This document shows, piece by piece, positions 680 through 9,548 of a stretch of DNA of 9,548 nt. The first letter of the stretch is position 1, and the number at the start of each line of letters is the position of its first letter. The position numbers were made by a program, and so were the translations under genes. Source of the DNA: Nostocaceae cyanobacterium CSSed10_463m (lineage in GTDB: Bacteria > Cyanobacteriota > Cyanobacteriia > Cyanobacteriales > Nostocaceae); contig PWQB01000658.1 of the NCBI GenBank assembly GCA_003556955.1, positions 1-9,548 on the forward strand, in the 5' to 3' direction. The notes beneath the pieces were generated by a model. It was not told the origin of the DNA. It did not search any database and saw only the letters and a list, made by a program, of their open reading frames with translations.

Positions 680-1120
680 TTACCACTTTTTGTAAGAGAG
701 GAATTTACCAGACATAATAACTTTAACGCGATCGCCTTTGGGGTCTGATTCTTTTTCCACATCTAAAGTAAAGTCAATGGCGCTCATAATACCGTCACCA
801 AATTTATCATGAATTACGGCTTTAATGGGCATTCCGTATACCTGCATAATCTCGTAAAAACGATAAATTAGTGGATCAGTGGGGACAACTGGACCTAGTC
901 CTTTGAGAGGACATTCAGTCAACGCTTGAATATAAATAGCACCTAATCCCAATGCTTCCACCAATAATTTAGCTTCTTCTGGGGAGGCGCTAGCTTGTCG
1001 GTAGAATACAGCCGCAATCCATACTTCGTCACGACCGATAATTTTTTCTAAATCGGCAAAACTTAATCCTTTCTCTTGTTTTGCTGCTAACAGCTGTTGT
1101 GTAATTTCGGGAATAGACAT
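680..1120 (-). CDS. cynS: Cyanase (cyanate hydratase/lyase)
   Basis: This complete 146-residue protein decomposes cyanate with bicarbonate to carbamate, which breaks down to ammonia and CO2. Residues 1 to about 75 form the helical, HTH-like N-terminal domain. The C-terminal catalytic domain starts near [11 protein letters not shown] and continues through [18 protein letters not shown] and [10 protein letters not shown]. The three catalytic residues of the family are present as Arg87, Glu90 and Ser113, with the same spacing as Arg96, Glu99 and Ser122 of the Escherichia coli enzyme. Length is close to the usual 147-156. The ATG at 1118-1120 is preceded by a GAGAG stretch that can serve as ribosome binding site. 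No cyanate transporter genes (cynABD) are adjacent, so it seems to be a single-gene unit. In cyanobacteria cyn genes are often nitrogen-regulated, but I found no GTA-N8-TAC NtcA site upstream. Cytoplasmic decamer in known relatives. Confidence 0.96.
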
Positions 1121-1201
1121 ATTAAAACTTCTCTCAGACGTAAAGTTAATTTTAGGCGATCGCTGGTTACAAAAGGAAGGACAAAATATAATAAGTTTTC
1201 A

Positions 1202-5076: not shown

Positions 5077-5082
5077 GAATTG

Positions 5083-5109
5083 TAGAGACGTTCCGGCGGA
5101 ACGTCTCTA
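5083..5109. repeat. Core palindrome, copy 2 (possible terminator)
   Basis: TAGAGACGTTCC and its complement flank a GGC centre, giving a 13-bp stem that starts six bases after the response-regulator stop. The arms are identical to those of the palindrome at 1333-1362, but the outer inverted repeats of that element are absent. Without a T-run it is not a canonical terminator, although the stem is strong. Confidence 0.75.
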
Positions 5110-5158
5110 ACAAAATTTGCTCTCATGCAACATACCAAGCATGGCTTTAAAAATTAAA

Positions 5159-5256: not shown

Positions 5257-6477
5257 TCAACGATAATCTTGGCTTTGAATATCACGCATACGCGCCGCAT
5301 CACGCATACCGTAATCAGTCCGAGTAAAACGATTTAACTGCGCCTCATAAAAGTCTCTATTGGCTTGTAAATGCTCAGGATCAGGGTCATCTAAAGGATG
5401 ATGTAATGCTGTACGTAATGCTTGAATTACCGCAGATGTAACATTGTACATTGACCGTTGGAAAGTAATTCCCAACTGAATCAACATATCATCTTCGCCT
5501 CGGCAATGTTTTTTGTAATCTTCAATTAGATATTCTGGCAAGAAATGCAACATATCTTGCATTAATAATGTTGGGGGAATACCTGCTGTTCCCACCGGAA
5601 ATACATCAGCATAAAGAATACCATAGTGGAAATCTTCTTGCTTATTTGGTACTTGACCCGCTTGAGCATTATAAGATTTTGTTCCCCTAAAAGGTGCTGT
5701 GCGATAAAAAACAGCTTCTACATAAGGTAATGCAGCTTCATACAACCAGACAAAACCTTCAGATTTGGGAATGATTTCGTAGCATTCACCACGGATATAA
5801 ACATGATGGTAAATAGGACGACTTGCGACGGCAAAAATCCCATTTACCAGAAAATTCATAGCTTCTGGGACAGTGGTAATTTTCCCCTCGTCATATAAAT
5901 CTGACATTTCAAAAAATACCGGAGCCATAACTTCCCAGAATAGCCCCAAATTAGAATAGTAAGACATTTGGCGGCACTGTTCTAAAAACATATCTGGGAA
6001 CAGTTTATAAAGCCCCAACATTACCGGGTTTCCTTGGAAATAAGCTTTGATAGCTCTATCAGCGTTGGCTTTATATTCTGGACTATCTAAATAAGGGTCA
6101 AATTTCCCACCCATTCCCCTGTGCCAAAACATAGCCCGCATACAAGCTTCAGCAAATTCCATATTGATGCGGTCATGGAATAAGTGATGTAATAACTTGG
6201 GCATTTTCAAGGTTTCACCCTTTTCCATAAATGCCAAAAGTTCAGGATGTGCAGTAGCTTCACCACGCCAAACTCTCAATTCAGCGTCATCCCCAGCATA
6301 ATGATTATGCAATTCCAAATACTCTTTCGGCAAGAAGTATTTAAAAAAGGGCAAAGGATTTAAAAATACTCGTTCAGCGATATAAAGCAAATTACGCCAG
6401 TAAAAATCCATCGGTACAGCATAAGCTTTATAAATGCCGATAATTTGTTTTAAATTTTCAGGTGTATCTGGCAACAT
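5257..6477 (-). CDS. CO2 hydration protein, CupA/CupB (ChpY/ChpX) family
   Basis: This is the peripheral protein of the CO2-uptake NDH-1 complexes, which converts CO2 to bicarbonate on the cytoplasmic side of the thylakoid membrane, driven by the complex. The ATG frame gives 406 residues. Recognisable blocks are MLPDTPENLKQIIGIYKAYA at the start, FMEKGETLKMPKLLHHLFHD at 83-102, FWHRGMGGKFDPYLD at 117-131, SRPIYHHVYIRGECYEI at 219-235, and FHYGILYADVFPVG near 283-296. His and Arg clusters (His97, His98, His101, His119, Arg120) are candidates for the zinc site of the family, but I cannot assign them firmly. It is the last gene of ndhF-ndhD-cup. No cupS follows, which mildly favours CupB. The true N-terminus is probably longer: family-like sequence continues in frame upstream of this ATG to about 6522, where the frame breaks. 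AGGTGG just before 6477 could permit internal initiation. Confidence 0.92.
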   Translation of the reverse strand: MLPDTPENLKQIIGIYKAYAVPMDFYWRNLLYIAERVFLNPLPFFKYFLPKEYLELHNHYAGDDAELRVWRGEATAHPELLAFMEKGETLKMPKLLHHLFHDRINMEFAEACMRAMFWHRGMGGKFDPYLDSPEYKANADRAIKAYFQGNPVMLGLYKLFPDMFLEQCRQMSYYSNLGLFWEVMAPVFFEMSDLYDEGKITTVPEAMNFLVNGIFAVASRPIYHHVYIRGECYEIIPKSEGFVWLYEAALPYVEAVFYRTAPFRGTKSYNAQAGQVPNKQEDFHYGILYADVFPVGTAGIPPTLLMQDMLHFLPEYLIEDYKKHCRGEDDMLIQLGITFQRSMYNVTSAVIQALRTALHHPLDDPDPEHLQANRDFYEAQLNRFTRTDYGMRDAARMRDIQSQDYR

Positions 6478-6517
6478 CGAACCACCTGCTTCTAACCGAT
6501 GAATTATCTCAGCAAAT

Positions 6518-6568
6518 TCATGAAGAAGGAGGTAGTTTATTCGTAGATTTTTCTGGAGTTTGTACCAT
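6518..6568 (-). pseudogene. Out-of-frame N-terminus of the cup gene (apparent frameshift)
   Basis: ATG at 6566-6568, preceded by AGAGG nine bases upstream, starts MVQTPEKSTNKLPPS and hits TGA at 6518-6520 after 16 codons. In the frame of the cup gene, the bases from 6522 down to 6478 read HEFAEIIHRLEAGGS and join MLPDTP without a stop. Removing one base near 6523 (minus-strand CCTCCTTCTTCATG) would fuse both parts into one protein about 30 residues longer. From memory, related Cup proteins have such an N-terminus, which needs an alignment to confirm. Confidence 0.7.
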
Positions 6569-6610
6569 GACTATTGCCTCTAAACTTTGATAGTTAAATT
6601 AATTGCTCCC

Positions 6611-6633
6611 TTGGCGTTCTTGGCGGCTTGGCG
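6611..6633. repeat. TTGGCG short direct repeats between ndhD and cup
   Basis: TTGGCG occurs at 6611, 6620 and 6628 with 9- and 8-base spacing. Repeats of this CGCCAAG type are scattered in cyanobacterial intergenic regions. Here it lies inside a likely operon. Confidence 0.45.
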
Positions 6634-6659
6634 GTTCGCTCATCTTCATATTCTGTTAC

Positions 6660-8162
6660 TTACTTCACAACAACTTGAGCAATGACGGTTTTTTCTATAG
6701 GGGGAATTGTCGCCACCATAGCTGTAGTTGTGGTTTCACTCCAACGCACTAACCAAGTCGGTTGTACACCCAAAAAGATAATTAGAACTGCCAAAACTAA
6801 AGCCGGAATTTTTTCCGCCCAGACAACTTTGGGGAAGTAAGCTAAATTATTATCCAGCTTGCCAAAACAGGTACGGTTGAGGAGAATCACAAAATACACT
6901 GCTGTTAAGCCGCTAGATGCTACACATAAGAGTGTGGGTAAGGGAAAAGCTGAAAAACTACCTTGAAATACAATAAATTCCGCTACAAATCCTGTTAAAC
7001 CAGGTATTCCCGCACTAGCCATCCCACTGAGAACCAGTAAAGCACTAATTAAAGGTAAACCGCGAATAGGACTCATTAAGCCATTGAGTTTATCTAATTC
7101 ACGCGTACCAACTTTGGCTTCTATTACCCCGACTAAGTGGAAGAGAATAGCTAGAATTAAACCGTGGCTAAACATTTGCGCCACTGCACCCACAAGTGCT
7201 AACGGTGTGCTAGAGGCGCTGGCTAGTAAGACATAACCCATGTGACCGATAGAACTGTATGCTACCATGCGCTTGATATCTGTTTGCGCGATCGCAATTA
7301 CTGCCCCATAAATCGCACTAATAGCCCCCCAAATTGCTAAAGTTGGTGCAACCACAGTCCAAGCTTGGGGAAACATTCCCATCCCAAAGCGTAACAGTCC
7401 ATAGGTTCCTAACTTCGCCAACACACCACCCAACAAAATCGCAATGGGTGCGGAAGCTTCAACATAAGCATCTGGTAGCCAAGTATGGAAGGGAACCAGA
7501 GGTATTTTAATTCCAAAGCCGATAATAATTCCTATCAGGAGGAGGAGTTGTAAACCTGCGGAAATATTTTGGGTAGATACAGCATTGAAGGCAAAACTGT
7601 TCGCACCAGTCAGGAATACCATCCCTAAGAAGGTGGCTAAAATGAAAGCACCGGAAACAGCAGTATAAATTAAGAACTTGATGCCAGCATAAGCTCGTTT
7701 TTCTCCTCCCCAAATGGAAATTAATAAATAGAAGGGGATTAATTCTAGTTCGTAGAATAAGAAGAATAACAACAGGTTTTCTGCTAAGAATGCCCCAGCT
7801 ACGCCACCACTAATAAATAAAATCAGGGAATAAAAAAGTCGTGGGCGTTCGGTTTGTTTATCACTGCTGTAAATAGCAACCCAGGTGAGTAAACTATTGA
7901 GTACTAACATCAAAATTGATAACCCATCAACCCCTAGTTGATAAGTTAAACCCAAAGTTTCATTCCAAGGCAGATATTCTTCAAATTGCATCCCTGGGGT
8001 GCTGATATCGAATTTCAGCAAAATAAACAAATTCCAGGATAAAACTACACCTGCTACGGTTAAAGATACTAAGCGGATGCGACTAGCCGGAACGAGTTTA
8101 CCAGGTAAAAACCCAATAATTACAGCACTGATAATTGGTATCCAAATCAGAAAACTCAACAT
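6660..8162 (-). CDS. ndhD: NAD(P)H-quinone oxidoreductase subunit 4, CO2-uptake type (NdhD3/NdhD4)
   Basis: This 500-residue polytopic membrane protein is the NuoM/ND4-like antiporter subunit of thylakoid NDH-1. It has about 14 hydrophobic segments and a proton_antipo_M core at about 125-415. Visible proton-channel residues are Glu138/Glu140 in FYELELIPFYLL, Lys219 in GFGIKIPLVPFHTWLPDAY, Lys250 in GVLAKLGTYGLL, His333 in MFSHGLILAI and Glu395 in GFVAEF. AQTDIKRMVAYSSIGHMGY at 292-310 is the conserved subunit-M signature. Length is normal. It starts 24 bp after the ndhF stop and ends 91 bp before the upstream cup ATG (6568), so co-transcription is likely. Linkage to ndhF and cup places it in a specialised CO2-uptake complex rather than the respiratory NdhD1/D2 form. 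D3 versus D4 is not decided; the lack of cupS leans to D4. Confidence 0.95.
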   Translation of the reverse strand: MLSFLIWIPIISAVIIGFLPGKLVPASRIRLVSLTVAGVVLSWNLFILLKFDISTPGMQFEEYLPWNETLGLTYQLGVDGLSILMLVLNSLLTWVAIYSSDKQTERPRLFYSLILFISGGVAGAFLAENLLLFFLFYELELIPFYLLISIWGGEKRAYAGIKFLIYTAVSGAFILATFLGMVFLTGANSFAFNAVSTQNISAGLQLLLLIGIIIGFGIKIPLVPFHTWLPDAYVEASAPIAILLGGVLAKLGTYGLLRFGMGMFPQAWTVVAPTLAIWGAISAIYGAVIAIAQTDIKRMVAYSSIGHMGYVLLASASSTPLALVGAVAQMFSHGLILAILFHLVGVIEAKVGTRELDKLNGLMSPIRGLPLISALLVLSGMASAGIPGLTGFVAEFIVFQGSFSAFPLPTLLCVASSGLTAVYFVILLNRTCFGKLDNNLAYFPKVVWAEKIPALVLAVLIIFLGVQPTWLVRWSETTTTAMVATIPPIEKTVIAQVVVK

Positions 8163-8186: not shown

Positions 8187-9548
8187 CTAAAACATCAAAC
8201 TCAAGAACTGGAATTTCCACAATGGCCAAGTTATCCAGGCACAGAAAATGCCTACTCCCAAAAGCACTGTAAAAGCATAAGTTTGGGTCTGTCCAGTGGT
8301 ACTGTATTTCAAACCTTCGCCACCTAAGAGGGAAAATAAACCCACTAAATTCACTATGCCATCAACTATGAAGCGGTCAATCATATCAGCAAATTTGGAA
8401 AGTTGGGCAACGCCGAAAATGATGGTGACGCGATAGAGTTTAGGGGTGTAAAAGTCGTAAGCGAATAAGTCTTGTAAGGGTTTCCAAGGCAGACGAATTG
8501 GTTTGGTAATATTGCCTAAATAAATGACGGCGCTAATGCTGCAACCAAAAATACTTGACCAAATGAGTAATAGCACGACATCTTTATTCAGACTTGCCCA
8601 ACTGGGTAAAATTGATAAACTTTGTAACACTAAAGGCAAATGTAGAACAAAGCCAAATAAAATCATCATTGGCATGACCATCGGCCAGTGAACTTCAGGC
8701 GATCGCTCACTCATTTGTTTAGCTTTACCACCGAAAATTAAGCCAAATTCTCTAGTTAAACTGAAAGCTGTTAAGGCGTTGACTAGAACAATAATTCCCA
8801 CTAACCAAGGGGAAGTTTCCCACAGTCCATCTGCTAATTCCACCAAAGCCCAAAAGCTACCTAACGGGGGAAAAGCAATTAATCCCAATATCCCCACAAT
8901 GAAAGCTAACCCAGAAATCGGGCGACGTGTCCACAAGCCTCCCAGTTGAGTGACATCTTGGGTGATGCTATTCCAAACAATACCGCCGGTACTCATGACC
9001 AATAATGCGGAAGCTAAAGCATGGGTAAGGACTAACAATAGTGCTGTTTCTTCTTGTTGTGTGCCGACAGCAATAAACACTAAGCCCATGTAAGCACTAA
9101 CAGAATAAGATAAGCAGCGTTTCACGTCAATTTGAGCGATCGCAATTAAGGATGCACCCACAGATGTCACTACACCAATGGCGATAATAAACGATGAAAC
9201 TACAGGCGATAAAGTTAAGACAGGTTGCAGTTTAATTAATATCCACGCACCACTTGCAACCACTACCGAGTTCCGCAAAATTGTACTGGGAACAGGGCCT
9301 TCCATCGCTTCATCTAACCACAAATGCAAAGGAAATTGAGCGCATTTACCCATCGGCCCAGCAACTAATGCTAAACCGACTAATGTAATCACCGTGGGAT
9401 CGACTTGAGCATTATTTGCCCATGCTGCTAATTCTGTATAATCCCAAGTACCTGATAAAGTCCATAAACCCAAGACTCCCATGAGTAAGAATAAGTCTCC
9501 TACCCGCTTGGTTAAGAAAGCATCTCTAGCACCAGTGACTACCAAAGG
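8187..9548 (-). CDS. ndhF: NAD(P)H-quinone oxidoreductase subunit 5, CO2-uptake type (NdhF3/NdhF4), 5' part missing
   Basis: The frame is open through the right edge, so this is the C-terminal 450 or so residues of a protein of roughly 600; the N-terminal part and the start lie outside. The TTG near 9545 is internal, because the reading continues as PLVVTGARDAFLTKRVGD. It is the NuoL/ND5-like distal antiporter subunit with many membrane spans. Counting that TTG as residue 1, it shows GKCAQFPLHLWLDEAMEGPVP at 66-86 and IAQIDVKRCLSYSVSAYMG at 136-154. The C-terminal FIVDGIVNLVGLFSLLGGEG followed by a last hydrophobic span fits the lateral-helix end. Where respiratory NdhF usually has ALIHAATMV it reads ILRNSVVVASGA, which I associate with the CO2-uptake NdhF group. 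First gene of the visible ndhF-ndhD-cup unit; its promoter is not in the window. Confidence 0.93.
   Translation of the reverse strand, partial: PLVVTGARDAFLTKRVGDLFLLMGVLGLWTLSGTWDYTELAAWANNAQVDPTVITLVGLALVAGPMGKCAQFPLHLWLDEAMEGPVPSTILRNSVVVASGAWILIKLQPVLTLSPVVSSFIIAIGVVTSVGASLIAIAQIDVKRCLSYSVSAYMGLVFIAVGTQQEETALLLVLTHALASALLVMSTGGIVWNSITQDVTQLGGLWTRRPISGLAFIVGILGLIAFPPLGSFWALVELADGLWETSPWLVGIIVLVNALTAFSLTREFGLIFGGKAKQMSERSPEVHWPMVMPMMILFGFVLHLPLVLQSLSILPSWASLNKDVVLLLIWSSIFGCSISAVIYLGNITKPIRLPWKPLQDLFAYDFYTPKLYRVTIIFGVAQLSKFADMIDRFIVDGIVNLVGLFSLLGGEGLKYSTTGQTQTYAFTVLLGVGIFCAWITWPLWKFQFLSLMF

Follow-up and report, generated by a model that had tools for sequence, protein, structure and literature searches.

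A cupA gene with its reading frame broken at codon 16 in a Nodularia-like cyanobacterium

The cupA gene and its operon

CupA (ChpY) is the CO2 hydration subunit of the cyanobacterial NDH-1MS complex, and a model of its active site has been built from the cryo-EM structure of Tlr0906 (PDB 6tjv chain P) (PMC6981117). Its gene belongs to an operon with the order ndhF3-ndhD3-cupA (PMC11456788). The window, i.e., the whole stretch of 9,548 nucleotides of contig PWQB01000658.1 that was analyzed, includes a CO2 hydration gene at the end of the same arrangement. Table 1 lists the features of this locus. The 406-residue frame matched TIGR01964 with 730 bits (cut-off 293.7) starting at profile position 17, so that the first 16 positions are missing, and PF10216 with 533 bits starting at profile position 11, with the first 10 missing. 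The match to the solved CupA (6tjv_P) reached 680 bits over chain residues 33-436. The family matches, the score against the solved protein and the ndhD and ndhF3 genes located upstream identify the gene as cupA of the ndhF3-ndhD3-cupA operon; judged by similarity and gene order, its product is the CupA of the low-CO2 NDH-1MS complex.

Table 1. Features of the cupA region (positions in the window).
Feature	Position	Strand	Remarks
Main cupA reading frame	5257..6477	-	406 aa, zinc-site residues kept
Orphaned in-frame piece, then internal ATG 6477	6475..6522	-	HEFAEIIHRLEAGGS
AGGTGG, possible ribosome-binding site	6482..6487	-	four bases before ATG 6477; predicted paired in hairpin
Leader remnant of cupA start	6518..6568	-	MVQTPEKSTNKLPPSS then TGA, 16 codons
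Break site	6520..6526	-	lone base 6523 vs one codon in relatives; net -2 bases
ndhD-type gene (NADH-quinone oxidoreductase subunit M family), intact	6660..8162	-	ndhD3 by operon place
ndhF3 gene, runs off window	8187..9548	-	TIGR01960 ndhF3_CO2, 720 bits

All eight active-site residues checked are kept and sit downstream of ATG 6477: Phe70, Lys78, Tyr79, His130, His133, Arg135, Glu139 and Glu142 (numbering of the Tlr0906 cryo-EM model). Unlike in Tlr0906, the first 31 residues are cut off from the body by a frame break. A second Cup gene was found in all five genomes G001-G005 (those of loci L001-L005; the locus and genome sets overlap), with 50-51% identity and 315-331 bits over query residues 90-387. 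This paralogue belongs to the same ChpXY family by its similarity to the query, with a score far under that of the CupA match, and its probable assignment as CupB is based on similarity scores rather than on its operon. The window gene is nearer to the solved CupA (680 bits) than to the second Cup gene of these genomes. The locus also resembles the ordinary case of a conserved gene with a frameshifted allele, in which a small loss affects one gene, the neighbors are intact and the relatives examined do not share the change; no feature distinguishing it from such an allele was found. Either a known gene is broken or shortened here, in an ordinary way, or the sequence contains an assembly error.

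The frame break and its absence from relatives

On the minus strand, translation from ATG 6568 gives the 16 residues MVQTPEKSTNKLPPSS before the TGA at 6520-6518. The leader and its stop had been predicted correctly, except that the length is 16 rather than 15 residues, and residues 1-15 are identical to those of the relative P0001 at 14 of 15 positions. The Shine-Dalgarno sequence of ATG 6568, described as good, is a moderate match only: when the 181 minus-strand ATGs were ranked by their match to the 16S tail, 33 were equal or better, itself included. As had been noted, the cup frame is open upstream of 6477: no stop interrupts it between 6570 and 5257, a stretch that includes HEFAEIIHRLEAGGS and ATG 6477. 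The two frames differ by +1, so the N-terminal part of the gene is not contained in one frame, with the break at 6523, and the cupA body is one open frame. Starting at ATG 6477, the protein has 406 residues versus 437 in P0001; the loss, predicted to be about 30 residues, is 31. The break site is outside any homopolymer run and combines the loss of two bases with a change in the remaining one.

The start of the gene was compared at 80 loci, those kept from genome contigs of the 566 relatives found. In every one of them, a single open frame contains an upstream Met and the motif S-x-HEF, where x is always exactly one residue (T in 22, K in 20, R in 16, N in 10, Q in 6 and others in 6). In the window, one base stands in place of the codon for x. 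Since both frames of the window match this one continuous frame in 80/80 loci, the point at which they were said to meet reflects homology and not chance. A one-base insertion near 6523 had been proposed. The frame arithmetic fits it, but the relatives show that the window is shorter by two bases: as all 80 loci carry one residue between S and H, the change is a net two-base loss, and a one-base gain is ruled out. Pairwise alignments also found the window two bases short, at 6523 or 6525, in comparison with five of five genomes from the genus to which G001 belongs, G001 among them. Identity to these genomes over 5260-6600 is 96-97% in four and 86% in one, and the nearest is G001 itself (locus L001), Nodularia sp. 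MAG LCM1.Bin15. The comparison with close strains thus upheld a change that these relatives do not share, with two extra bases in each genus genome, though not its description as an insertion.

A family search of 192 genomes was carried out with P0001 (437 residues) as the query, taking matches with E values of 1e-150 or better as CupA. CupA was present in 188 genomes, and the remaining four had only a CupB-like match (46-52% identity, E 1e-20 or better); in G021, CupA was accompanied by no second Cup match. In 185 of the 188, the open match began at query residue 10 or lower and extended to residue 437. The other three have breaks elsewhere in cupA, an internal TAA in G048 and mid-gene frame changes in G073 and G179, which may be real or assembly errors. 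Loss of the N-terminal part alone was found in none of the 188 (0/188). The exact junction sequence had no matches in viral contigs. A plasmid or phage origin was rejected, as megablast-mode searches of the whole window against plasmids and of 5260-6660 against phages returned no match.

The upstream part could in principle never have been protein, ATG 6477 being the native start. Two database proteins, P0046 and P0101, do have MLPDTP as their N-terminus, and they are the only ones under 426 aa among the 120 matches listed; their short starts may stem from the way the genes were called, from truncated contigs or from comparable breaks. Homologues that all start at MLPDTP with nothing upstream would have spoken against the original prediction, and what was found is the reverse: the conserved upstream part is present in 80/80 loci, and the solved CupA 6tjv_P (437 aa) aligns from residue 1, upstream part included. 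A native start at MLPDTP is ruled out by these loci, and we give this explanation practically no credence. Furthermore, an alignment of 35 CupA proteins out of the 120 listed showed conservation of 90% or higher at H17, E18, F19 and I23 to G30 (P0001 numbering).

The +1 offset and the TGA at the junction are also what would be expected if programmed +1 frameshifting at a pyrimidine-rich site led to full-length CupA. Such recoding would be unneeded in the relatives examined, with 80/80 loci open, and none of them (0/80) has the break there. In addition, judged by codon-anticodon rules, re-pairing of the UCA tRNA on CAU is not expected and shifts at CCU or UCU pair weakly, and the product would lack the residue that intervenes between S and H in the 80 loci. 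The recoding that had been offered as an alternative found no support, and programmed frameshifting, which the relatives do not need and whose codons re-pair poorly, was dismissed as highly improbable.

Taking these comparisons together, we lean toward the view that the cupA of this Nodularia-like cyanobacterium carries a young, real net two-base loss in codon 16. The loss would then exist in the organism itself, or in a fraction of its population, and normal 437-residue CupA would not be made from this allele.

Translation from the internal ATG

If the two-base loss is real, the allele would yield at most a CupA short by 31 residues from ATG 6477, where ribosomes would either reinitiate after reading the 16-codon remnant or enter directly. 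This protein would be without H17, E18, F19 and I23 to G30. The available portion of PMC6981117 states no function for the N-terminal part of CupA. With full CupA missing, NDH-1MS would be weakened or lost, and CO2 uptake would continue through a CupB-type paralogue, provided that the organism has one like its near relatives.

In its Shine-Dalgarno match, ATG 6477 ranks near the top, with three of the 181 minus-strand ATGs equal or better, itself included. Intact relatives have the same ATG preceded by a G-rich hexamer (AGGTGG in 7/80, AGGCGG in 36/80), which exists because two Gly codons are conserved in the 80 loci. This arrangement was therefore not created as a bypass of the break. The window showed no Rfam match at the gathering threshold that would point to an RNA element.

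A more specific proposal is that the leader is translated, the ribosome melts the hairpin that hides AGGTGG, and reinitiation at 6477 provides useful amounts of shortened CupA. This would be a sub-case of the two-base loss and does not exclude it. The distance from the leader stop to ATG 6477 is 40 nt, the zinc-site residues are kept, and AGGTGG is predicted to pair with the stretch just before the leader stop (mean unpaired 0.01), all of which are consistent with the proposal; a ribosome on that stretch could open the paired hexamer. However, 20 of 200 shuffled sequences fold as well, which places the hairpin at chance level, and in six relatives that lack the break, the hexamer is largely paired as well (mean unpaired 0.03-0.17). 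Together with the origin of the hexamer in conserved Gly codons, these observations indicate that reinitiation is possible but not designed. Moreover, 11 of the lost residues show conservation of 90% or higher, and the loss reaches into both family models, by 10 positions in Pfam and 16 in NCBIfam. As such, reinitiation at ATG 6477 is plausible, while useful amounts of a functional shortened CupA are unlikely. Less likely still, by a good measure, is that a natural strain has a working short CupA in which translation of the leader uncovers the ribosome-binding site as a translational control of high-affinity CO2 uptake.

A search of the literature for a CO2 hydration protein with a frameshift produced only PMC3788122, whose available text concerns glpK and an expression table, and searches for Nodularia with cupA, ndhD3, a CO2-concentrating pseudogene or NDH-1 CO2 uptake found none. 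If real, this is a natural allele in which the conserved N-terminal segment is separated from the zinc-bearing body of CupA, and it would suggest that some Nodularia-like cyanobacteria can do without inducible NDH-1MS or manage with less of it. Otherwise, it calls for caution in annotation: calling a 406-residue protein from ATG 6477 does not give the ancestral one.

Sequence quality, age of the break and other features of the window

The chief rival of a real young allele is an assembly or sequencing error: cupA would be intact in the organism, and two bases at 6523 would have been dropped from the consensus, e.g., because strain variants were mixed in a metagenome. The analysis covered a single copy of the sequence, and an error would look the same as a real allele. 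The quality of the surrounding sequence bears on this point. No gaps were found in ndhD, ndhF and the cupA body versus six loci (L106-L111), or in the nuclease, CAP-domain, response-regulator and methylase genes versus L107. An in-frame difference of 21 bases was seen in the rhodanese gene, and the cyanase gene had no usable match in this gene-by-gene comparison. The lack of frame-breaking gaps in the other genes compared argues against an error, as does the nature of the site, which is not a homopolymer and where the two-base loss is combined with a base change.

Codon changes private to the window were then considered. In the cupA body, four are silent and two replacing; four relatives have 6-9 silent and 1-2 replacing changes each (summed 32 and 5; Fisher p 0.25 versus the window). 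Within these small numbers, no further decay or relaxed selection of the cupA body was detected, which indicates that the break is young or not real; a body under normal constraint is also what an assembly error predicts. The first 31 codons without the broken one include 4/30 private codons versus 6/407 in the body (Fisher p 0.003, post hoc and with hand-entered counts). This cluster of substitutions at the break could be that of a patched consensus, but three of the four are silent in the old frame, resembling natural divergence and not noise. Considering the evidence on both sides, an assembly error is a serious contender that we hold to be somewhat less probable than a real two-base loss.

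The private codons amount to 27/501 in ndhD and 21/453 in ndhF, versus the 6/407 of the cupA body. As both neighbors are also richer in private changes, the body rather than the start may be the unusual part of the gene. The low private change in the body compared with ndhD and ndhF may be due to recombination.

Other features were observed in the window. The cyanase gene, cynS, is located at 680-1120 on the minus strand (TIGR00673, 204 bits). L107 (from G006) had no blastn match to window positions 779-1139, with both flanks matched, and cynS may be absent there. A perfect palindrome with 15-base arms, TGTAGAGACGTTCCA/TGGAACGTCTCTACA, occupies 1333-1362, and a similar stretch, GAGACGTTCCG/CGGAACGTCTC, is found at about 5081-5110; together they resemble a dispersed intergenic repeat.
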